Assembly (NCBI GenBank): GCA_944381515.1
Contig: CALWLM010000021.1
Coordinates: forward strand, 1 to 64,000
Source of the DNA: an uncultured Lachnospiraceae bacterium
Lineage (GTDB): Bacteria; Bacillota; Clostridia; Lachnospirales; Lachnospiraceae
Length of the DNA: 64,000 bases
Reading direction: 5' to 3'
The translations under genes and the position numbers were made by a program. The notes below the pieces were generated by a model that was given only the letters and a program-made list of their open reading frames with translations, was not told the DNA's origin and searched no databases. This document shows positions 3,649 to 64,000 of the stretch, one piece after another (within the stretch, counting starts at the first letter, position 1; each line of letters opens with the position of its first letter).

Positions 3649-4941
<1,293 letters not shown>

Positions 4942-5056
4942 ATCCCGCCGCCGCTTTCAGCCCGGTTAATCCACCCCTGTCCCGGACATCTCCAATTATG
5001 AAAGATGTCATAAAAACAAATGGAAAAAATGTAAAGTATTGCGATTCAAAACCTCC

Positions 5057-40518: not shown

Positions 40519-40802
40519 AAAAAGACCTTTGTCTCATCAAGAGACAAAGGTCTTTACTCCTCTGCGGTACCACTCTTATTGCCGGCAGGGCCGGCCGCTC
40601 GTTCACATATCATGCAATATGGGATAAGATAACGATTATCAACCGTTCAGACTTACTGGATATTATCCATCATCAATCGTTCAGCCCGAAAGCTCAGAGG
40701 GGATCTTCACCGAATACTCCGATTGCCTCGCACCGCCCGGCAATTCTCTGAATCTTCGTATTTCGGCTACTCTTCCTCGTCAGCGCCGTGTCTGTTTCTT
40801 TA
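40519..40802 (-). ncRNA. T-box riboswitch upstream of the BASS transporter, probable Ile specifier
   Basis: On the minus strand the leader contains AGAGTGGTACCGCAGAG (core at 40564-40573), the T-box signature that binds the uncharged tRNA end. A perfect 15-bp terminator (40521-40535 with 40541-40555) and a U-tract follow at once. The 5' part shows Stem I features: GAAGAGTA, a CAGAGA bulge, a GGGCGGTGCGA terminal loop on an ATTGCC/GGCAAT stem, and GTGAAGATCCCCTCTGAGC. In the usual GAA-N-XXX layout the specifier is ATC (complement of 40702-40704), that is isoleucine. A GAT reading (Asp) is possible but less likely. Confidence 0.88.
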
Positions 40803-52837: not shown

Positions 52838-53455
52838 CTACTGCTTTACCGGGACCCCGGCGGCGCCCAGCTCACGGCGCAGCCTTTCCACATCTCCGTC
52901 AAATACGCTGCCTCTCATGCCGGTGCAGAGCGCCCCCTCCACATTGAGAGGAGAATCGTCGATAAAATAACACTCCTCCGGCTTCAGATCATACCTGTCA
53001 TACAGCACTTGGTATATCTCCGCCTGCGGCTTCAAAAGCTTCTCCTCCGCCGAAACCACCAGGCCATCCAAATACTGGCTGCCCGGTATTCTGGGCAGAT
53101 ATTCTCTGAGACGGCGATTGGCATTGCTGAGCAGATAGAGCCGGTAGCCCATACCTTTCAGCTCCTCCATCAGTTCCGCCATTCCCTTTACGGGAATCAG
53201 CGGCCTCTGCCACCAGTGGCAGACCAGCTCCCAGGCCGCCTCATGGAGACGCTCAGGAAGCCTTTTGCATACCGCCTCCGCGGTCTCCTCCTCGGACAGG
53301 GTTCCCCGGTCAAACTGTACCCATTCCACCCGGGCAAAAACCTCTTTCAATAAAAGCTTGGCATCCTCGCCCTCGATTCCCAGACGGCGAATAAACTCCA
53401 CCGGCGTAAAATAAATGAGCACCTGTCCCATATCAAAGACAATGTTTTGAATCAT
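52838..53455 (-). CDS. HAD-superfamily hydrolase, YihX-like (alpha-glucose-1-phosphatase group)
   Basis: A 205-residue HAD phosphatase. Motif I is IVFDMGQVLIYF (Asp8; the second Asp of the usual DxD is Gly, as in the YihX subgroup). Motif II is LLSNAN, motif III the Lys in KLLKPQAEIY and motif IV FIDDSPLNV. YihX itself removes phosphate from alpha-D-glucose-1-phosphate. Its ATG overlaps the stop of the permease gene (TGATG), so it is translationally coupled to the transporter, a strong hint that the imported molecule is a phosphorylated sugar. Confidence 0.85.
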   Translation of the reverse strand: MIQNIVFDMGQVLIYFTPVEFIRRLGIEGEDAKLLLKEVFARVEWVQFDRGTLSEEETAEAVCKRLPERLHEAAWELVCHWWQRPLIPVKGMAELMEELKGMGYRLYLLSNANRRLREYLPRIPGSQYLDGLVVSAEEKLLKPQAEIYQVLYDRYDLKPEECYFIDDSPLNVEGALCTGMRGSVFDGDVERLRRELGAAGVPVKQ

Positions 53456-55394
53456 CAGCCCTGCGCTCCCTTCGCCTCCTGCTTTACAGCCATCTGAGCC
53501 TTGGGCTCGGGGCGCCTCTTGAAATGGGCCATCAGCTTCTCTCTCCTCTTCTTACGCTTATCCCGAAGCTCCAGACGGTCGCCCAAATCCCGTCCGCCGA
53601 CGCCGTAGACCAGATAGAGGATGATACCGGACACGACCATAATAAACACCGTGGAGGCGCAGCGCCGGCCTGAAGCATTGACGTTATAGCCATACATTCC
53701 CTCTTCCTCGCACATACTCTGGATTACCATCGCGTAGGTGGTGCCGTAAGAGCTGGCAAAGGTGGCCGACATATCGTACTCCGTAAAGAGGGCGTTGAAA
53801 TTCAGGGCGAACACGGCCATGACGCTGGGCAAAATAATGGGCAGCTTCACCTTCAGGAAGGTCATCAGCCCGCTGGCCCCCATATTTCTGGCGGCGTCCT
53901 CCAGTTCCTCATCTATCGCATAGAAGGACGCCTTGATCATTCGCAGTGAGAATGGCAGCTTCGTCACCGTGTAGGCCATTACAATCAATATTCGTACATT
54001 TTCAGCATAATAGAGATTCTGATTGCCCACATACCACACCACATCGCTGTTGAAGAATGTACGGTAAGAATAGCAGATCAGAATGGTAGGCAGCAGCCAG
54101 GGGAACAGCAGGCTGTACTCCAGCACCGCCCCTCTCTTTTTGCCGCGGTTCTTGAAGATATAGTTGCAGGCTACCACCACGATAATGCAGGCCAGCAGCG
54201 CTGCGATGGCGGACATAATAAAGCTGAGCTTGATGCCGCCCAGGGTGGCCTCATTGGAAAACAGGCCTGATATCGCTCCCTCCCTGAGCCGGTACGTGCC
54301 TCTGGACGTCAGGTATTCATAGTCCTGGGTTCCAAAGAAATTGATCAGCGTCCAGTTGCTCAGATCCAGCTTTTTCATCCGGATAGCCCCATAGGTCTGG
54401 AACGAGAAAATCACGATCATGACTACGGGAATCATATAGATGATAAAGAGAATATAGGCGTATATATGGGCCAGCACATTGGCCACCGGATTGGTGATCT
54501 TCTGCTTCTGCAGCCTGGCCTTGGTCTTGGAAACAGACAGATAATGCCCCTTTCTCTCATAAGCCGAAAGGATCGTCAAAAGCACGATGGTAAACATGGC
54601 CAGAATAATAGACAGAAGAGCCGCTCTGGCCTGGGGGAATGCCTCATCCGCCGTGGACGAACCGGCCAGACGTACGATCTCCGGGTTGATGGAGTCGTAA
54701 CCCAGCAGAGTAGGCGCCGACATGGCACACAGACCGGTAATGAAAGTCATGACGGTCAGAGAGAACATCGTGGGCAGAAGGGTGGGGAAGACCACCTTCC
54801 ACAGCACCTTAAAGGGCTTGGCGCCCATGTTGCGGGCCGCCTCCACCGTATTGTAATCGATTCCCCGGATGGCATTTCGCAGAAACAGTGCGTGATTGCT
54901 GGTACAGGCGAATGTCATCGTAAAAAGCACCGCATTAAAGCCGGAAAACCAGTTGGGGTTCATATTGGGAAAGGCATTGGTCAGCAGAGTGGTCAAAATG
55001 CCGTCGCTGTCATACAAAAACAGATAACCGGTAACCAGGGCCACGCCGCTGTAAATCATAGTGGTCATGTAGCCCAGCCGCAGGATGCGGGCTCCCTTGA
55101 TGTCAAAATACTCCGTCAGAAGCACAATGGACACACCCACAATGTTGACCGTCACCACCAGACAAACGGCCAGCTTCAGGGAATTGAGCACATAGCGTCC
55201 CATGTTGCCGGCGAAGAAAAAACGTATGACGGCAAGAGGGTCCGTCTCACCCGCTGCATTTTTGGTCGTAAAGATACTGGTCAGCGTATTCAGACAGGGA
55301 ACCAGCATAAAACCGAAAAACAGGTAGGCAAAAAAAGCGACTCCTATCATCCGGACAACGATCTCCGGATTCAGCCGTTTAGCCTTCGCTTTGT

Positions 55395-55398
<4 letters not shown>
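53455..55398 (-). CDS. Double-domain ABC transporter permease (FbpB/AfuB-like)
   Basis: A 647-residue protein with two fused permease domains, about twelve membrane segments. Each domain has an EAA loop: VEAARNMGAKPFK in the first and EDAARNMGASGLM in the second. This fusion is typical of ferric-iron (FbpB) permeases and of the hexose-phosphate permease AfuB of Actinobacillus. The Arg/Lys-rich C-terminus is cytoplasmic. It overlaps the ATPase gene (ATGA) and the HAD gene (TGATG), so all three are coupled. Confidence 0.88.
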
Positions 55399-56432
<1,034 letters not shown>

Positions 56433-56470
56433 ATGCGGCAACTCCTTTTCTATTCCAGTATGGCAAAAGC

Positions 56471-56498
56471 ATGGCGGGCCGAAAATCCGGCCCGCCAT
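56471..56498 (-). other. Intercistronic hairpin after the binding-protein gene
   Basis: An 11-bp stem (ATGGCGGGCCG, 56471-56481, with 56488-56498) between the solute-binding gene and the ATPase gene. It probably protects the upstream mRNA or reduces read-through, as at 17451. Confidence 0.6.
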
Positions 56499-56536
56499 AA
56501 TCGACAAATATCATTTCAGCTTATCGGCCGTACTTG

Positions 56537-57823
56537 TCAGGATGCGGCCTGCGTCAATGTATCCCAGTCAAGGTTATCCCAGTCGGGCTCAGGATTCGGG
56601 CTGTTCATATCGGCCCAATAGAAGCCCAGATTGGTCATGATGTTGGTCCACTCGCTGGAGTGCTCGGCAACGTATTCCGCATAGGTCATGCCAGTTCCTT
56701 CGATCTCGGTCAGCGCGAAATTAGGCAGCGTGTAAATCGAGGGTACTCCATCGGGGTAGAGGATCTCAGCAGCAGCCTGGTTGCAGGGATAGGAATCAAA
56801 CTCCTCGCCCCATGCAGCCTGAACGTCCGCGGAGCCAAACCACTCGGCAAAGGCCATAACAGCCTCCGTCTCTTCCTCGGTACGGCCTTCCTTGTCCAGG
56901 ATGCCAATATACTCAGCTATGTAATAGGTTCCGTCGTCGATCTGCACCAGATTCCAGTTCTCCGGCTCCAGGGTTCCCAGAAGAGGGTTCTCCGAGCTCT
57001 CTGCCGCGGCATCAATGTTGCCGTACAGGGAAGAAGAATAGAAGGTGGATACCTGCACATCGCCGCGGTTCAGTGCATCGAAGCCATAGTTGTCACCGGT
57101 GAATATACCGTTCTGGCAATACTGCCACAGCATCTTCCAGCCGTCCACGGAGATGCCGCCCGCAGGGGACTCGGGATCTACATAAGAATACAGCATGGAA
57201 GCATTGATGTTGGAATTGGTGGTGCCGCCCACCTTGCCCTGACGGTACCAGGTGTAGCCGCAGTCTACGATATCGGACCAGTGCTCGAAATGAAGCTCCT
57301 CGCCGTTCGTGCCCAGCTCATCGTTACGATAGAGCATCAGAATGTTCTGGATAACCAGGCCGTAGGCATATCCGGGATAAGCGTACTCGCCTACCTTGTC
57401 AGCCCAGGAGGGAGTCCATTCCACCAGAGACAGGTTCTCATAAACTCCATTTACCAGCTGGCTCCAGCGGGTCTCATTCAATCCGAAGATCAGGTCGCCA
57501 TCCTTATTTTCATTAGCAGCCTGGATAGCAGCCGTATCGCCGGAAATGACGCTGTTGTCATCCATGGAAATGGTAAATCCTGCATCTCTGGCCTCGTTGA
57601 TCAGCCAGGTAGCTCTCTCCGTGGAATTGGAATTCGAGTAGATGCGAATGGTATAATCGGAATAATCCTTAACCTCCTCGGAATCTCCGCCGGAAGTCTC
57701 CTCAGCGCCGCCTGCGCCGGATGTCTCGCCTCCGCCTGCAGCCGTCTCATCGCCGCCGCCAGAGCAGCCGGCAAGAGAAAGCATCATGGCAAGGGCCAGC
57801 AGTAAAGCAAGAGCCTTTTTCAT
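56537..57823 (-). CDS. ABC transporter substrate-binding lipoprotein (FbpA/AfuA-like)
   Basis: A 428-residue lipoprotein with lipobox LSLAGC (Cys20), a Gly/Glu/Thr linker, and a periplasmic binding fold of the iron/thiamine/sugar-phosphate group (YTIRIYSNSNSTERATW, DGDLIFGLNETRWSQL). No clear Tyr pair for iron can be assigned. Because the operon ends with a phosphatase and a hexose phosphomutase, a phosphorylated sugar is a better guess than iron. ATG is preceded by an AAAAGGA-type site; an unknown promoter lies in the AT-rich stretch upstream. Confidence 0.87.
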   Translation of the reverse strand: MKKALALLLALAMMLSLAGCSGGGDETAAGGGETSGAGGAEETSGGDSEEVKDYSDYTIRIYSNSNSTERATWLINEARDAGFTISMDDNSVISGDTAAIQAANENKDGDLIFGLNETRWSQLVNGVYENLSLVEWTPSWADKVGEYAYPGYAYGLVIQNILMLYRNDELGTNGEELHFEHWSDIVDCGYTWYRQGKVGGTTNSNINASMLYSYVDPESPAGGISVDGWKMLWQYCQNGIFTGDNYGFDALNRGDVQVSTFYSSSLYGNIDAAAESSENPLLGTLEPENWNLVQIDDGTYYIAEYIGILDKEGRTEEETEAVMAFAEWFGSADVQAAWGEEFDSYPCNQAAAEILYPDGVPSIYTLPNFALTEIEGTGMTYAEYVAEHSSEWTNIMTNLGFYWADMNSPNPEPDWDNLDWDTLTQAAS

Positions 57824-58175
57824 ATCCTTTTCTCCTTTTCTTAAAAAGACATTAAGTAGCTATATTTATATTTTAAAGAAATCTTACCCCGGTGAAAACA
57901 GGACAAAACTGCGATTATTGAGGATATTCTGTCGAGAATACCTATAAAATCCTTTTTACGACCGCTTTTTATGTGCATTTCGCCATATAAATCCCCGGTG
58001 TTTTCCTGTTCCCATATTAATTTTTACTCTGATCCTCCGCCCTGCCGGCAGCCGGCGCTGCGGCAAATCTCCGCGACAAATCTGTTTGTACTTTATGTTA
58101 AGATTCGGTATAATGAAAACATACGATAAGGGTACGGCTGTCTGTAAAGCCGATGCCAATCAGGAGGGGATGCGT
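57824..58175. other. Divergent regulatory region between the transporter and its sensor genes
   Basis: No gene in about 350 bases. It is AT-rich near 57840-57890. CCCCGGTG occurs near 57889 and 57997 in direct orientation, a possible regulator box. The plus-strand promoter of the sensor lipoprotein is at 58086-58114. Confidence 0.5.
58086..58114 (+). promoter_or_regulatory. Promoter of the sensor lipoprotein/two-component operon
   Basis: TTGTAC (58086-58091), 17 bases, TATAAT (58109-58114), 60 bases before the gene. Confidence 0.6.
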
Positions 58176-59288
58176 GTGAAAGCTGGGACTGTTAAAGTGC
58201 GGACCGTCAAAACGCGGCGCACCATCAGAAGAATCGCCTGCGGTCTGTTAAGTATGGTCTGCGGTCTGTCTCTTCTGTCCGCCTGCGGCGGTCAGGAGTC
58301 GCCGGCCGATACGCCAAGCGCCCCGGCCGAGGAAATGCAGCTGTCCATCTGCACCTCCCTCTCCCCATCGGTTTACGAGCCCATCGTCCGGGAATTTGAA
58401 GCCCGCACAGGCATATGGGTCACAGTGGAAAACGGCGGCAGTCTGGAGCTTTTGGATCAGATCGCCGCGGCAGACGGCGCCCCCTCCTGGGATTTGCTCC
58501 TGGGCGGCGGTATGGACAGCCTGACGGCCCGCAGCGAACTCTTCGTCCCCTATGAGAGTCCTCTCCTTGACCATGTGAGGGCGGCCTACCTGCCCTCCGA
58601 CAACTGTGAGACTCCTTTTTCCATTGTCCCGCTGGTCTTAATCTACAATCCCAAGCTGGCCCGCATTCACCCTCCCTCCGGCTTTGAAAGCCTGTTGGAT
58701 ACGGCCTGGAAGGGACGGATTGCCTTTGCAGATCCGACTGTCTCCGGCACCAGCTATACGGTGCTTGCGGCCCTTCAGCAGGTACTGCCCGGCGACGACA
58801 CAGAAAACCTGCGCGCCTTTGCAGTCAATCTGGACCGGCAGCTGCTCTCCCATTCCAGCGACGTGATTCGGGAAGTAGCCAACGGCAACTGTTATATCGG
58901 CATGGTGGGAGAGGACGACGCCCTGCGAGCCATGGAGGCCGGCTATGATATTGCCGTCGTCTATCCCGCCGAAGGTACCTGCGCCATTTCCGACGGCGCC
59001 GCCATCCTAAAAGGCTGTGCTCATGAGGAAAACGCCGCCCTTTTTATCGACTTTCTGCTGAGTCTGGATGTACAGAAATATATTGAAAGCGCCTGCCTGC
59101 GCCGCTCCGTCATGGACGGCTCTCTTTCAGACAGTCTGGGGGCGGACAGCCCGACTGCGGACAGCATCCTCCCCGACGACTTTACCGATGACTTTTCTCT
59201 CTTTTCCTACGACATCGCCCTCTCCGCCAGCAGTCAGGAGGATATCCTGCGCTCCTGGAGACAGATCTGGGAGGAGGAAAGCAGATGA
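58176..59288 (+). CDS. Solute-binding sensor lipoprotein (HptA-like)
   Basis: A 370-residue lipoprotein with a basic start, hydrophobic segment, lipobox LLSAC and the ABC binding-protein fold (LSICTSLSPSVYEPIVREFE, PSWDLLLGGGMDSL). It is encoded directly before a histidine kinase, overlapping it by ATGA, and not with a permease. It therefore probably serves as an external sensor, as HptA does for the Staphylococcus aureus HptRS sugar-phosphate system. I prefer GTG at 58176, eight bases after GGAGG; an ATG at 58170 is too close. Confidence 0.8.
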   Translation: MKAGTVKVRTVKTRRTIRRIACGLLSMVCGLSLLSACGGQESPADTPSAPAEEMQLSICTSLSPSVYEPIVREFEARTGIWVTVENGGSLELLDQIAAADGAPSWDLLLGGGMDSLTARSELFVPYESPLLDHVRAAYLPSDNCETPFSIVPLVLIYNPKLARIHPPSGFESLLDTAWKGRIAFADPTVSGTSYTVLAALQQVLPGDDTENLRAFAVNLDRQLLSHSSDVIREVANGNCYIGMVGEDDALRAMEAGYDIAVVYPAEGTCAISDGAAILKGCAHEENAALFIDFLLSLDVQKYIESACLRRSVMDGSLSDSLGADSPTADSILPDDFTDDFSLFSYDIALSASSQEDILRSWRQIWEEESR

Positions 59289-60988
59289 AGAAGTGGATTC
59301 GCCGTTCTTTCCGCAATCGGATTTTTCTCACCGTGCTGCTGGTCACCCTCCTGCCCCTGCTGTTCTGCAATGTGCTGATGATGCAGATGCAGGTGGTTCG
59401 CAGCGAGATCAGTCTGGCGCAGGAAGCCAGAGCGCAGCTCACCGCTCTGGACGGCGCCCTGGATGAACTGTGCCTTTCCTTTGAAGAAATGGCCGATGAG
59501 CTATGCGAAAGCACCGCCGTTCGCAGCGTGCTTCGCCAAAAAAGCGCGGATTCCCGCGTTTTGTATCAGCTGCTGTTTCGAGTCACCGATGAGCTGAGGG
59601 AGTATGCCCGTTTTGATATCTGCGACAGGGAAGGACTGTGCCTTTACACCACAGACGCCACCGTTCCCACCGGGACGCTTTATACCGACTGGGGTATCCT
59701 CTGCGCCGCCTCCGGTTCCGTGGATCTGGTCTTTCGCTCCGGCGAAGGCGACGTGGCTCTCACGGCTGCCCGCGCGGTCCGAAGCCACGATTCGGCTGTT
59801 CTGGGCTATGTGGTGGTCTCCATGTCCCCTGAAAATTTTGATTACCTCTTTCAGGACCTGTACAGCACCACCAGCGACATTATCCTGATGGACCCTTTCT
59901 GGCGGCCGGTGTATCATTCCCAGCCTGCCCAGACGGAAAATGCGGCGGAAAGCCTGCGCCAGCAGCTCTTGGCCGGAGAGCCCCTGACCGGAGCCGGCGG
60001 AGACTACTACTATTATACCTCTCCCCATCAGGAGACCGGTATGTCCTTGATCCTTCAGCAGCCCATGACCTTTACTTCCACGGTAATGCACACCATCTAT
60101 GCAGTCAGCCTTCTGATGGGACTGCTGTGCCTGCTTTTGTGCCTGTGGTGCGCCTGGCTTTTAAGCCGACATCTCTTCCGTCCGATCCGGCAGCTGGACG
60201 AGGCCATGGGCGAGGTACGCAAAGGCAATTTTGACGTTCATCTGGACACCGGACGGGAAGACGAGCTGGGGCGTCTGGCCGACAGCTTCAACCATATGGC
60301 CGATGAATACCAGGCCAACCTCTCCCGTTCCGTGGCCAGGCAGAGAGAGCTCAACGAGACGCAGCTGCGCATGATGCAGGCCCAGCTGAATCCGCATTTT
60401 CTGTACAACACGCTGGACACCATGAAATGGCTGGGCGTCACGAACCATGTCCCGCAGATTGCCGAGCTGGCCTCCGATCTGGCCATTATTCTGCGGGCTG
60501 GCATTTCCGGGGATGAAATCATTACCGTGGAACAGGAGCTGGAGCTCATCGACCGGTATCTGGCCATACAGTCCATTCGGTTTGAGGATCGCTTTACCTG
60601 TGAAATAGATATTCCCGAAGAGTTTCAGAGCTGCCTGATTCCCAAGATGGTTCTGCAGCCCCTGGTGGAAAACGCCATCATCCACGGGGTGGCCGACAAA
60701 AACGACGGCTACATCAAGCTGTGGGCCGAGGAAAAAGAGGGAGACCTGTTTTTATCCGTATCGGACAATGGCTGCGGTATCCCGCCCGAACAGCTGGCCG
60801 ATTTAAACCAGCGCTCCAAAAAGAAGCCCGCAGATCAGGGTTCTCATCTGGGGCTGTTCAACGTAAACAGTATTATACGGCTGCACTTTGGAGAGCCCTA
60901 CGGGCTGTCCGTCCGCTCGCAGCCGGGAGAAGGCTGCTGCGCCACTCTGCGGCTGCCGATACAGAGGAGGAGAGACGAAAATGCTTAA
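59285..60988 (+). CDS. Sensor histidine kinase, YesM/HptS type
   Basis: A 567-residue membrane kinase. Two membrane segments (about 11-33 and 257-280) flank an extracellular sensor domain, then a HAMP domain (RPIRQLDEAMGEVRKGNF), the His-kinase region with the phosphorylated His in QLNPHFLYNTLDTMKW, and an ATPase domain with VENAIIHG (N box) and VSDNGCGIPPEQL (G box). It overlaps the sensor lipoprotein gene by four bases and the response regulator gene by eight, so all three are coupled. Confidence 0.9.
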   Translation: MKKWIRRSFRNRIFLTVLLVTLLPLLFCNVLMMQMQVVRSEISLAQEARAQLTALDGALDELCLSFEEMADELCESTAVRSVLRQKSADSRVLYQLLFRVTDELREYARFDICDREGLCLYTTDATVPTGTLYTDWGILCAASGSVDLVFRSGEGDVALTAARAVRSHDSAVLGYVVVSMSPENFDYLFQDLYSTTSDIILMDPFWRPVYHSQPAQTENAAESLRQQLLAGEPLTGAGGDYYYYTSPHQETGMSLILQQPMTFTSTVMHTIYAVSLLMGLLCLLLCLWCAWLLSRHLFRPIRQLDEAMGEVRKGNFDVHLDTGREDELGRLADSFNHMADEYQANLSRSVARQRELNETQLRMMQAQLNPHFLYNTLDTMKWLGVTNHVPQIAELASDLAIILRAGISGDEIITVEQELELIDRYLAIQSIRFEDRFTCEIDIPEEFQSCLIPKMVLQPLVENAIIHGVADKNDGYIKLWAEEKEGDLFLSVSDNGCGIPPEQLADLNQRSKKKPADQGSHLGLFNVNSIIRLHFGEPYGLSVRSQPGEGCCATLRLPIQRRRDENA

Positions 60989-61727
60989 GGTACTGGTAGT
61001 AGACGACGAATCCGTAGTAAGAAAAGGAATCGTCCTGGGCGTAAACTGGGCCTCCATGGGCTGCATCGTGGCCGGAGAAGCGTCAAACGGCGAGGAGGGA
61101 CTGGCCGCCGTAAAACGCTATAATCCCAACCTGATCATCACCGACGTCAGAATGCCGAAGATGGACGGCCTGCAGATGGTACGGGAGCTGCGGGCTCAGG
61201 GCTGCCGCGCCTATGTAATCATGCTGACCGCCTACAGTGATTTTGAATACGCCCGAAGCGCCCTGCAGCTGGGCGCTGTGGATTACCTGCTCAAGCCCTT
61301 CCGGGATCAGGAGCTGGCCGCCGCCATCGACCGTATACGCCAAAGAGAACAGGAGCAGACCTCCCTGACTCCCGGCGATCTGCTCCCTCTGCCCAAAGGC
61401 AATAAGAGTAAATATGTATTGCAGGCCATGAACTACATCTCCGAACACTATCAGGAGCAGGACATCAGCATTACTCCCATCGCCAGACATCTGGGCGTCA
61501 GCGAGAGCCATCTGAGTCATGTCTTCAAAAAGGAGACCAGCTATACCATCATCGGCTATCTGACCCAGTATCGAATCCATATGGCCATGAATCTGCTGCG
61601 CGACTGCCGCCGCAAGGTCTATGAGGTGGCGGAGATGGTGGGCTACCGTGATGTGGCCTACTTTGGCAGCACCTTCAAAAAGCTGGTGGGTATGAGCCCC
61701 TCCGAGTATCAGGACCGCTGTCGGTAA
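60981..61727 (+). CDS. Response regulator with AraC-type DNA-binding domain (YesN/HptR-like)
   Basis: A 248-residue protein. The receiver domain has VVDDESV (Asp8, Asp9), phosphorylated Asp55 in IITDVRMPKMDG, and Lys105 in YLLKPF. The C-terminal AraC domain has ISITPIARHLGVSESHLSHVF and KVYEVAEMVGYRDVAYFGSTF. It most likely activates the divergent ABC transporter operon. ATG at 60981 follows GGAGGAGAGACGAA within the kinase gene. Its last 19 bases overlap the convergent ECF gene. Confidence 0.9.
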   Translation: MLKVLVVDDESVVRKGIVLGVNWASMGCIVAGEASNGEEGLAAVKRYNPNLIITDVRMPKMDGLQMVRELRAQGCRAYVIMLTAYSDFEYARSALQLGAVDYLLKPFRDQELAAAIDRIRQREQEQTSLTPGDLLPLPKGNKSKYVLQAMNYISEHYQEQDISITPIARHLGVSESHLSHVFKKETSYTIIGYLTQYRIHMAMNLLRDCRRKVYEVAEMVGYRDVAYFGSTFKKLVGMSPSEYQDRCR

Positions 61728-62233
61728 CGGCTCTGAATATCGTACAGCACCCTGGCCTTTAGAAGCTTCAGCACCTTCATCAGAGGCCGGTACAGCGCCA
61801 GCGTCAGGGCAAAATTGCCCGCGCAGTGCAGAATGTCAAACATCAGCCCCGACGTCCACCAGGCCAAGGCCGTCCCGATTCCGCCTGCGAACAGATACGG
61901 CAGAGAGCACAGCGCTCCGAAACTCAAGCCGAACAGGCCGTTTACCACAGCCCAGACAAGGACCGAGTCGTTTCTGCGCAGCAGCCGTACAATCAGGTAG
62001 AGCACGGCCCAGACATAGAGGTACATAAACCACCACAGTCCGAAGCCGTAGGTCACTCCCTGGAGAAAGACGTAGGCATAGACAGCCGCCAGCGCTTTGC
62101 GTCCAAATACCAGCGTGTATACCAGCACCAGTATGGAAACCGGTTCAACGTTGGGCAAAAACGCCATCGCAACCTGGCTCACATGCAGGATCGCTCCCAG
62201 CAGCGCCAGTACCGCCAGCTCCTTTACTTTCAC
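61709..62233 (-). CDS. ECF transporter S component, probably for cobalamin or a precursor
   Basis: A 174-residue protein with about five or six membrane segments (ELAVLALLGAILHVSQVAMAFLP, VLVYTLVFGRKALAAVYAYVF) and the profile of energy-coupling-factor S components, which use ATPases and a T unit encoded elsewhere. It starts with GTG one base after the DUF4430 stop and is under the same cobalamin riboswitch, so vitamin B12 or a corrinoid is the likely ligand. It could be related to CbrT/CblT-type components, but I cannot assign a name from sequence alone. Confidence 0.78.
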   Translation of the reverse strand: MKVKELAVLALLGAILHVSQVAMAFLPNVEPVSILVLVYTLVFGRKALAAVYAYVFLQGVTYGFGLWWFMYLYVWAVLYLIVRLLRRNDSVLVWAVVNGLFGLSFGALCSLPYLFAGGIGTALAWWTSGLMFDILHCAGNFALTLALYRPLMKVLKLLKARVLYDIQSRYRQRS

Positions 62234-62234
62234 G

Positions 62235-62642
62235 TCAATATCCTACCGTCAGCGTAATCTCAAAATGGTCCCCATCGGCCACCGGCGTGGTCTCGACGCC
62301 GGTATTGAGCATCTCGCCGTCCTTGGTGAAGCACCACCACTCTTCGTTGGAGCTGTCTGCCGTATAGCCATCCACCGTCTCCACAAACATTCCATACTCA
62401 GAATCGCTGCCCGCAATCAGTCCGGCAGGCTCCAGCACATCCCGCAGGTATTCTGCGTCGGTGTCATAGCTGAACTCTTTGGACTCGCCGTCTTTGTGCA
62501 CCACCTCTACCACGATGCTCTTGTCGCCCTTGTCGGTGGCCGGCCGGGTCGCCATATATACGGCTGCCGCTGCAACCACTGCCACGATCAGCACCAGTAC
62601 TGCCACAAGGCCTTTTTTGTTTTTGTTCTTCTTCTCTTCCAT
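62235..62642 (-). CDS. DUF4430 membrane-anchored protein (transcobalamin-like), probable corrinoid capture
   Basis: A 135-residue protein: a Lys/Asn-rich cytoplasmic start, one membrane segment (about 11-32), and an exposed DUF4430 domain (SIVVEVVHKDGESKEFSYDT, EEWWCFTKDGEMLNTG). DUF4430 resembles the C-terminal beta domain of transcobalamins and intrinsic factor. It has no lipobox, so it is anchored by the N-terminal helix. The cobalamin riboswitch upstream supports a role in binding corrinoid for the ECF component next to it. ATG follows GGAGGATCAAT. Confidence 0.8.
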   Translation of the reverse strand: MEEKKNKNKKGLVAVLVLIVAVVAAAAVYMATRPATDKGDKSIVVEVVHKDGESKEFSYDTDAEYLRDVLEPAGLIAGSDSEYGMFVETVDGYTADSSNEEWWCFTKDGEMLNTGVETTPVADGDHFEITLTVGY

Positions 62643-62713
62643 ATTGATCCTCCTTTTGCTCCTTATGCGGGCTCCTGTCATAAATGGAAACGGCTGCCCG
62701 CGCAGCCGCAGCC

Positions 62714-62754
62714 AAAAATAAAACCCTTCCGGCGTGAGAACACACAAGAAGGGT
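62714..62754 (-). terminator. Riboswitch-controlled intrinsic terminator
   Basis: On the minus strand ACCCTTC (62748-62754) pairs with GAAGGGT (62723-62729), followed by TTTATTTTT. It lies between the cobalamin aptamer and the DUF4430 gene and is the likely off-switch when cobalamin is bound. Confidence 0.8.
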
Positions 62755-62844
62755 CTGTATATTGCAACGGAAAGGAAAGCCGCCGCAGCCGGCCGCCTGC
62801 CTTCCATATTACAATCGCCAATTACCCGTGGTGTTGTACAGCAA

Positions 62845-62995
62845 ACGGCAGGCAGGTCTTCTGGCTCAAGGCTCTTTGCCAACCGCCGTCTTCCCGGTTT
62901 CCCAGTGACTTGCAGGCGGTCCGCTCCCCTTTTACAGCGACGGGTTCGCACAGGCTTTTCACCTGTTTCCCTTTTCATCCCGGGCCTTTTTTATA
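62845..62995 (-). ncRNA. Cobalamin riboswitch
   Basis: On the minus strand this leader shows the cobalamin aptamer features: GGGAAACAGGTGAAAAGCCTGTGCG near its 5' part, the B12 box (CAAGTCACTGG), and the end motif GAGCCAGAAGACCTGCC. The order and spacing match the family. It controls DUF4430 and the ECF S component through the terminator downstream. Confidence 0.9.
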
Positions 62996-63055: not shown

Positions 63056-64000
63056 TTACTGAGCCGCTGTGGTCTCAGCCGCAGTCTCGGCCTGTGCGGA
63101 GGTTTCCTCTGCGGTCTCTCCCACAGTCTCCTCAGCCGTTTCTGCTGCGCTTCCTTCGGTTCCGGCCTCGGTCTCCTCTGCGGACTCCGTACCGGCAGCC
63201 GTAGTCTCAGCGCCGCTCTCCGTCTCGGCAACGGTCTCTGCAACATACAGCGTATCCATAGGCACGGCGTTCCAGATATCGTCGTCCACCGTAAACTCTG
63301 CGGAATCCGTCTGCCACTGGCTGTACGTCTCCTCAAAGACAGCCGCCTGAGCCTCGCTGATCATGGTCTGTCTCTGAGACTCGGTGGCATCCTCATCCAT
63401 CTCCGCATCCAGATACATTACATACCAGCCGCTGCCGTCCACATGGAACAGCTCTACATCTCCCTCGGCCATGGACAGAGCGTGAGCGCCAAGGCTTCCC
63501 TCATCGAAGGTATCGCCGGTATAATAGGTAACCGTAGCTGCCGTCAGCCCCTGGTTCTCAGCGGCCTCCGACAGAGTGCTGCCGTTTCTCACATCATCAT
63601 AAATGGTCTGCGCCACCGCCTTGGGGGAAGGACTCGTGGTCTCCTCTCCATCGGCCTGAGTCTCCGCCTGGGTCTCTTCCTCCGAAGAGCTGGTGGAATC
63701 CGAGACCAGTACGTAAGAAGCGCCCACGCAGCGGGCCTCCTCATCGGAGATATCGGTATCTGCCGCAGCAACTACCGCCTCCCATACGCGGTTGGCCAGG
63801 GCATTCTTCTCCAGGATCGCAATCATGCGGTCTCTGGTCAGATTGAGGGCAGAAAGAAGATTTTCATCAACCTGGGAAAGATTGTTGTCCGCCGTCTCCT
63901 CCACCTTGGCGATATCCTCATCGCTCAGGGAGACGCCCAGCTCCTCGGCATGATCGCAGAGGATATAGGTCTGGCGCAGAACGGTCATGACCGCTTCCTT
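63056..64000 (-). CDS. Peptidyl-prolyl isomerase/foldase-like protein (PrsA/SurA type), partial
   Basis: The frame is open to the window edge, so the 5' end, including any signal peptide, is outside. The visible 314 codons have a helical chaperone-like segment (EELGVSLSDEDIAKVEETADNN, LTRDRMIAILEKNALANRVWE), then a weak parvulin-like region (ASYVLVSD to VDGSGWYVMYLDA). A 60-residue Ala/Glu/Thr low-complexity tail ends the protein. The parvulin domain is divergent and interrupted by a Ser/Glu/Thr loop, so isomerase activity is uncertain. Probably an extracellular foldase. Confidence 0.7.
   Translation of the reverse strand, partial: KEAVMTVLRQTYILCDHAEELGVSLSDEDIAKVEETADNNLSQVDENLLSALNLTRDRMIAILEKNALANRVWEAVVAAADTDISDEEARCVGASYVLVSDSTSSSEEETQAETQADGEETTSPSPKAVAQTIYDDVRNGSTLSEAAENQGLTAATVTYYTGDTFDEGSLGAHALSMAEGDVELFHVDGSGWYVMYLDAEMDEDATESQRQTMISEAQAAVFEETYSQWQTDSAEFTVDDDIWNAVPMDTLYVAETVAETESGAETTAAGTESAEETEAGTEGSAAETAEETVGETAEETSAQAETAAETTAAQ

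Follow-up and report, generated by a model that had tools for sequence, protein, structure and literature searches.

A DUF4430 protein encoded next to a CbrT-type ECF S component is a probable transcobalamin-like corrinoid catcher

To characterise a predicted B12-uptake locus, we analysed a 64,000-nucleotide stretch of an uncultured Lachnospiraceae bacterium (GenBank assembly GCA_944381515.1, contig CALWLM010000021.1, positions 1 to 64,000; henceforth the window). Close to its end lies a cobalamin riboswitch followed by an intrinsic terminator, a gene for a DUF4430 protein and a gene for an ECF S component, and all four elements are encoded on the minus strand (Table 1). The aptamer is full-length (model positions 1–189 complete in the cmscan alignment), it passes the curated gathering score of RF00174 (31.5 bits), and it is the only cobalamin riboswitch found in the 2.9 Mb assembly. 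The terminator consists of a stem at approximately 62756–62721 with a T tract after it, and its predicted folding energy of −21.3 kcal/mol (z −3.71) was equalled by none of 200 shuffled sequences. A Shine-Dalgarno sequence (AGGAGG) precedes the ATG of the DUF4430 gene at 62642, and exactly one base separates the end of its stop codon (62235) from the GTG of the S component gene (62233). We also considered a longer open reading frame of 247 amino acids, starting at 62978, as the DUF4430 gene and rejected it because its start falls within the aptamer. The aptamer with its terminator and the one-base spacing of the two genes had both been proposed in a first-pass annotation made from the sequence alone, and both were borne out; the span given there, 61709–62995, holds both genes and the terminator, but the aptamer begins 32 bases upstream of 62995 and the strand is the minus strand.

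Table 1. Coordinates of the riboswitch, the terminator and the gene pair within the window.
Feature	Position	Strand	Evidence
Cobalamin riboswitch aptamer RF00174	62834..63027	-	cmscan 120.9 bits, E 8.5e-30
Intrinsic terminator, interrupted stem then TTTTATTTTT	62714..62756	-	RNA fold
DUF4430 protein gene, 135 aa	62235..62642	-	ATG start, PF14478
CbrT-like ECF S component gene, 174 aa	61709..62233	-	GTG start, 6FNP match

Several other features surround this unit. The S component gene is convergent with a gene for an AraC-type response regulator, and their 3′ ends overlap by 19 bases. The neighbouring segment (53455–61727) encodes an iron-type ABC transporter on the minus strand (binding protein, ATPase and fused permease), after which a second binding protein, a histidine kinase and the AraC-type response regulator follow on the plus strand. 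Directly upstream of the riboswitch (63056–64000, minus strand, running past the window) is a gene for a secreted SurA/PrsA-type lipoprotein whose C-terminal tail is of low complexity and rich in Glu, Thr and Ala. Further away, at 40537–40792 on the minus strand, we found a T-box leader (114.3 bits).

Searches of Pfam and NCBIfam gave no match for the S component, and for this reason we placed it by sequence search against the PDB. The only match reported by phmmer at E values up to 10 was CbrT (6FNP chain A; E 1.7e-14), in an alignment that spans residues 3–159 of the S component with approximately 34% identity. The first-pass annotation had allowed that the ligand pocket might turn out to match another vitamin; at the level of homology, the sole match in the PDB was this cobalamin protein. 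Cobalamin and cobinamide are both nanomolar ligands of CbrT, which, joined to an ECF module, imports them; for the ECF-CbrT transporter of Lactobacillus delbrueckii, B12 transport is documented both in E. coli and in vitro, and no DUF4430 partner was reported (PMC5997447). When 55 S components were placed in a tree, the protein of the window fell on the CbrT side of a branch with 100/100 support, which divides it from S components lacking an adjacent DUF4430 gene. An AlphaFold2 model of the S component, built from a thin alignment of 6 sequences, produced weak Foldseek matches only, several of them to S components; the conserved-motif scan was run with CbrT alone, as the mixed alignment (A1) was too diverse. 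We identify the gene as encoding a CbrT-type ECF S component, for which cobalamin binding and transport are predicted by homology. Within the CbrT side of the tree it belongs to a distinct clade, apart from Lactobacillus CbrT, meaning that its fine specificity among corrinoids (cobalamin, cobinamide or other cobamides) could differ from that of the Lactobacillus protein.

The partner protein begins with a transmembrane anchor (approximately residues 11–30) without a lipobox cysteine, whereas in some lactobacilli its counterpart has a lipobox-like cysteine. The anchor is followed by a single extracytoplasmic, transcobalamin-beta-like domain (approximately residues 38–135) that matches PF14478 (E 2.1e-9; 38.2 bits against a gathering cut-off of 23.8), in agreement with the membrane-anchored DUF4430 protein that had been read from the sequence at first pass. 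Its closest solved structure is a close homologue, RUMGNA_00854 of Ruminococcus gnavus (3u7z; E 1.4e-30, 52–53% identity over 97 aligned residues), which was deposited under the title ‘putative metal binding protein’, with neither a corrinoid nor any other ligand in the title. When a DUF4430 profile built from 13 relatives was run against every sequence in the PDB, we obtained four matches only: 3u7z, haptocorrin (E 9e-6) and two intrinsic factor entries (E 0.002). Sequence similarity to haptocorrin and intrinsic factor is thus detectable, with an identity to mammalian beta domains of only 16–24%.

The structural comparison pointed the same way. The AlphaFold2 model of the DUF4430 protein has a pLDDT of approximately 91 over the domain, and Foldseek matches 3–19 were all cobalamin carriers. 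Against solved cobalamin carriers (transcobalamin, intrinsic factor and haptocorrin), the domain reached VIA Z scores of 13.0–14.4, and the next fold was the ubiquitin-like Urm1 at Z 7.4. The set of high-scoring structures includes the isolated human transcobalamin beta domain, both with and without cyanocobalamin, and the beta domains of human transcobalamin, intrinsic factor and haptocorrin (5np4, 2pmv and 4kki) have the same fold over 94–98 residues (Z 13–14). The modelled domain therefore has the ubiquitin-like beta-domain fold of the transcobalamin family. The alpha/alpha-barrel alpha domain of these carriers was not found in the 135-amino-acid protein, which has one domain only; unlike the human carriers, it is also bacterial, membrane-anchored and paired with an S component. 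A beta domain by itself can be sufficient for binding: CNCbl and cobinamide are both bound by the human transcobalamin beta domain in isolation, which the alpha domain joins only when Cbl is present (PMC5599065). A stepwise order has been described, in which cobalamin first attaches to the beta domain and the alpha domain then closes over it (PMC11107200). In the alignment of DUF4430 domains, residues 76–125, corresponding to the half that anchors the ligand in transcobalamin, were better conserved than residues 40–75 (P 0.003, in a coarse test that is not proof of binding), and W103 was invariant in 31 of 31 sequences. The use of this fold suggests that bacteria, too, catch B12 outside the cell with a transcobalamin-type domain.

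To see how general the pairing is, we examined it at two phylogenetic scales. Among 150 genomes of the same family we detected 44 strong homologues of the S component, and 43 of these had a DUF4430 gene immediately upstream, on the same strand and within 240 bases. The one exception in the family carries a lipoprotein-like gene at the expected place, with a marginal match to the DUF4430 profile (E 0.013). Counted by genome, DUF4430 was present in 41 of the 42 having such an S component versus 32 of the 108 lacking one (Fisher P 1.6e-15, a value that is indicative only, since the genomes are related and do not count as independent). A sample of 398 genomes from the phylum gave 13 CbrT-like loci, the window included, and a DUF4430 gene lay directly upstream at 12 of them, as opposed to 0 of 17 loci with other S components. 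The latter came from profile A1, whose matches across the phylum also include, below about E 1e-21, S components of other kinds; they were used as negative controls, covering only about 1.5 kb on each side, and were excluded from the CbrT-like count. At the remaining locus of the phylum sample, no DUF4430 gene was found near the CbrT-like gene. The pair extends from the Lachnospiraceae to the Lactobacillaceae, Enterococcus and Lactococcus, and it constitutes an old, specific and near-invariant conserved unit. Co-occurrence of DUF4430 with riboswitch-controlled S components had been named at first pass as a way of checking the proposal; the pairing itself held at both scales, and a cobalamin riboswitch preceded the pair at 12 of the 30 loci examined, the window included (11 of 29 others). 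On a megaplasmid of Enterococcus gilvus (locus L077, 2874–5489) the pair sits just downstream of queG, which encodes a B12-dependent enzyme.

Taken with the fold, this near-invariant association makes it probable that the DUF4430 protein is a beta-domain-only, transcobalamin-like corrinoid catcher which serves a CbrT-type ECF importer, the two genes forming a B12-uptake operon. Under the main rival, the protein is an accessory subunit without ligand binding of its own (comparable to CbiN for CbiM) that stabilises or gates the S component and uses its fold as a protein–protein interface only. ECF systems for cobalt and nickel do include small accessory membrane proteins. CbiN and NikN are named in PMC2667541. 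Strict adjacency and translational coupling would suit such a subunit as well as they suit a catcher, and CbrT alone already binds B12 tightly (PMC5997447). However, the other solved members of the DUF4430 fold are B12 carriers, the half of the domain that faces cobalamin in transcobalamin is the better conserved one, and in Lactococcus the DUF4430 gene is the last in an operon with genes for a B12-dependent reductase and an adenosyltransferase, divergent from cbrT, the cobalamin ECF gene. We consequently regard the accessory-subunit explanation as rather unlikely.

The experimentally studied CbrT system provides a close comparison. For the CHARACTERISED transporter ECF-CbrT, the gene order nrdJ-cbrS-cbrT-pduO was reported with the nature of cbrS unstated (PMC5997447). 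We found a contig (L067) with nrdJ, then a gene for a 154-amino-acid secreted DUF4430 protein (E 1.1e-20), cbrT one base later and then pduO, in which cbrT is approximately 98% identical to that of L. delbrueckii. From this order we infer that cbrS is the DUF4430 gene, an identification that draws on synteny in near-identical DNA and not on the subspecies from which 6FNP came. The contig is labelled Faecalicatena absiana and is Lactobacillus-like, probably reflecting contamination of that assembly. Annotated plasmids of Lactobacillus intestinalis and Lactiplantibacillus plantarum likewise carry nrdJ, DUF4430, S component and adenosyltransferase genes together. In L. delbrueckii DSM 20074 (locus L068, approximately 4500–4980), nrdJ and DUF4430 have collapsed upstream of an intact cbrT, such that frameshifts and a deletion connect the start of the nrdJ frame with the 3′ end of DUF4430. 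The L. delbrueckii cluster and the window share the homologous S component, the DUF4430 gene immediately upstream of it (the cbrS position) and a separately encoded EcfAA′T module; by contrast, the unit in the window comprises two genes only, is under a cobalamin riboswitch and has no linked gene for a B12 enzyme.

These observations can be combined into a probable mechanism. When intracellular adenosylcobalamin is low, the riboswitch would relieve termination and allow a message for both genes to be made. The DUF4430 domain, anchored in the membrane by its N-terminus, would be displayed outside the cell and would catch cobalamin or other corrinoids with the same face as the transcobalamin beta domain. 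The S component would then take the corrinoid from, or together with, this domain, forming the other half of a sandwich in the role of the transcobalamin alpha domain, and would dock on a shared EcfT-EcfA-EcfA′ module whose genes lie at another site in the genome. Driven by this module, it would topple and release the corrinoid inside the cell for use by MetH. The first and last steps (the riboswitch, and ECF toppling and release) rest on established families, whereas what we infer is the middle of the scheme: corrinoid binding by DUF4430, its physical contact with the S component and the passing on of the ligand, and the choice of ECF module. The DUF4430 protein is an aid to transport of the ECF-CbrT type and not a strict necessity, because ECF-CbrT transports without it (PMC5997447). 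For the same reason its role would lie in better capture at very low B12, in protection against loss or competitors, or in selection of the corrinoid form, and not in making transport possible.

This modifies the picture drawn at first pass, in which DUF4430 was a surface corrinoid-capture protein and a Gram-positive counterpart of the binding proteins of B12 ABC systems. The capture role is favoured by the fold of a cobalamin-binding beta domain and by the near-invariant co-occurrence, with binding and hand-off being the putative part of it. The parallel with ABC systems fails for obligate delivery in the manner of BtuF: BtuF is likewise an extracytoplasmic corrinoid catcher for an ATP-driven importer, but it is from a different family and is an obligate part of BtuCDF, so the likeness is one of analogy. 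Similarly, BtuG of Bacteroides captures B12 at the surface for an importer in a gut bacterium (PMC6143338), a functional analogy only, as it is a different protein that works with the outer-membrane BtuB. The usual description of ECF systems as needing no extra binding protein, cited at first pass as a contrast, is too simple, given that the partner gene is already in the cluster of the characterised CbrT as ‘cbrS’.

DUF4430 domains also occur in larger operons of same-family genomes. Distant matches to the S component (loci L081–L093) lie in operons that encode a DUF4430 lipoprotein, EcfT, fused or tandem ECF ATPases and an S component, and ahead of these come genes for large surface proteins whose domains include DUF4430, Ig-like or alpha/alpha-toroid ones. 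The toroid domains (squalene-hopene-cyclase C or prenyltransferase) matched above the Pfam cut-off in one protein only and weakly in three others. Such surface proteins, found away from CbrT-like genes, bear on an alternative in which DUF4430 binds a non-corrinoid ligand such as a metal ion or the cell wall and stands next to CbrT for no other reason than co-regulation, a view for which the title of 3u7z could also be cited. Yet besides 3u7z only cobalamin carriers match DUF4430 in sequence, many of the other DUF4430 proteins are themselves in ECF operons, and a cobalamin riboswitch was present at 6 of the 11 scanned loci of the larger operons, which leaves a non-corrinoid ligand very improbable. 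Returning to the corrinoid-catcher reading, an alpha/alpha barrel also forms the alpha domain of transcobalamin, and proteins that combine DUF4430 with a toroid may for this reason be two-domain bacterial carriers. We tentatively raise the possibility of a bacterial transcobalamin system in the Bacillota, with a simple form (a beta-only catcher and a CbrT-type S component) and an elaborate form (a riboswitch-controlled toroid/DUF4430 operon with dedicated EcfT-EcfAA′-S). If true, animal B12 carriers and bacterial ECF importers would share one principle of sandwiching B12.

The riboswitch, CbrT and DUF4430 are each already known, and a comparative-genomics paper of 2009 reportedly predicted CbrT. 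In the open-access literature that we searched, we found no description of what cbrS is, of a partner with the transcobalamin beta fold or of the near-invariant pairing (the 2009 paper may name cbrS). Among open-access papers mentioning DUF4430 we found none that connects it with the import of B12 by bacteria or reports ligand binding by a bacterial DUF4430 protein. In accounts of ECF transporters, capture of the vitamin falls to the membrane S component alone, and a near-invariant partner folded like the B12 carriers of humans would introduce a separate step of capture. It would also give the gene cbrS a function and turn DUF4430 into a named B12-binding family, and direct competition for B12 between gut bacteria and the host proteins intrinsic factor and haptocorrin would become conceivable.

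Finally, we considered what the host would do with the vitamin, using its 2.9 Mb assembly (a 98% complete draft, in which the absence of a gene is not proof). MetH is present and adjoins MetF, whereas MetE and CbiD were not found in this draft, so the host should need imported B12; a PduO-type adenosyltransferase was not found in it either. A group II ECF module (EcfT-EcfA′-EcfA) is encoded on contig 30. No BtuCDF-type importer (FecCD permease with a BtuF-type binding protein) was found at the locus, and the genome's single FecCD gene lies on a different contig, next to genes for a ModE-like regulator and the Fe-S subunit of a molybdenum hydroxylase, which makes this permease more likely to serve molybdate than B12. 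The DUF4430–S component pair is therefore the only recognisable B12 importer of the host and should matter for methionine synthesis. The needs of the host also inform one further alternative, namely that the cargo of the S component is a precursor of B12 or another cobamide (e.g., cobinamide or pseudo-B12) and not cobalamin, with DUF4430 selecting the form. CbrT does transport cobinamide too (PMC5997447), and the separate subclade of the S component would be compatible with such a shift; on the other hand, a genome without CbiD appears to need a ready corrinoid for MetH, and we consider this the least probable of the readings weighed here. The MetH of the host (locus L131, 4500–8595) is a short form of 838 amino acids that stops before the activation domain, and a 225-amino-acid gene product between metH and metF, with no match in Pfam or NCBIfam, may supply the activation-domain function.
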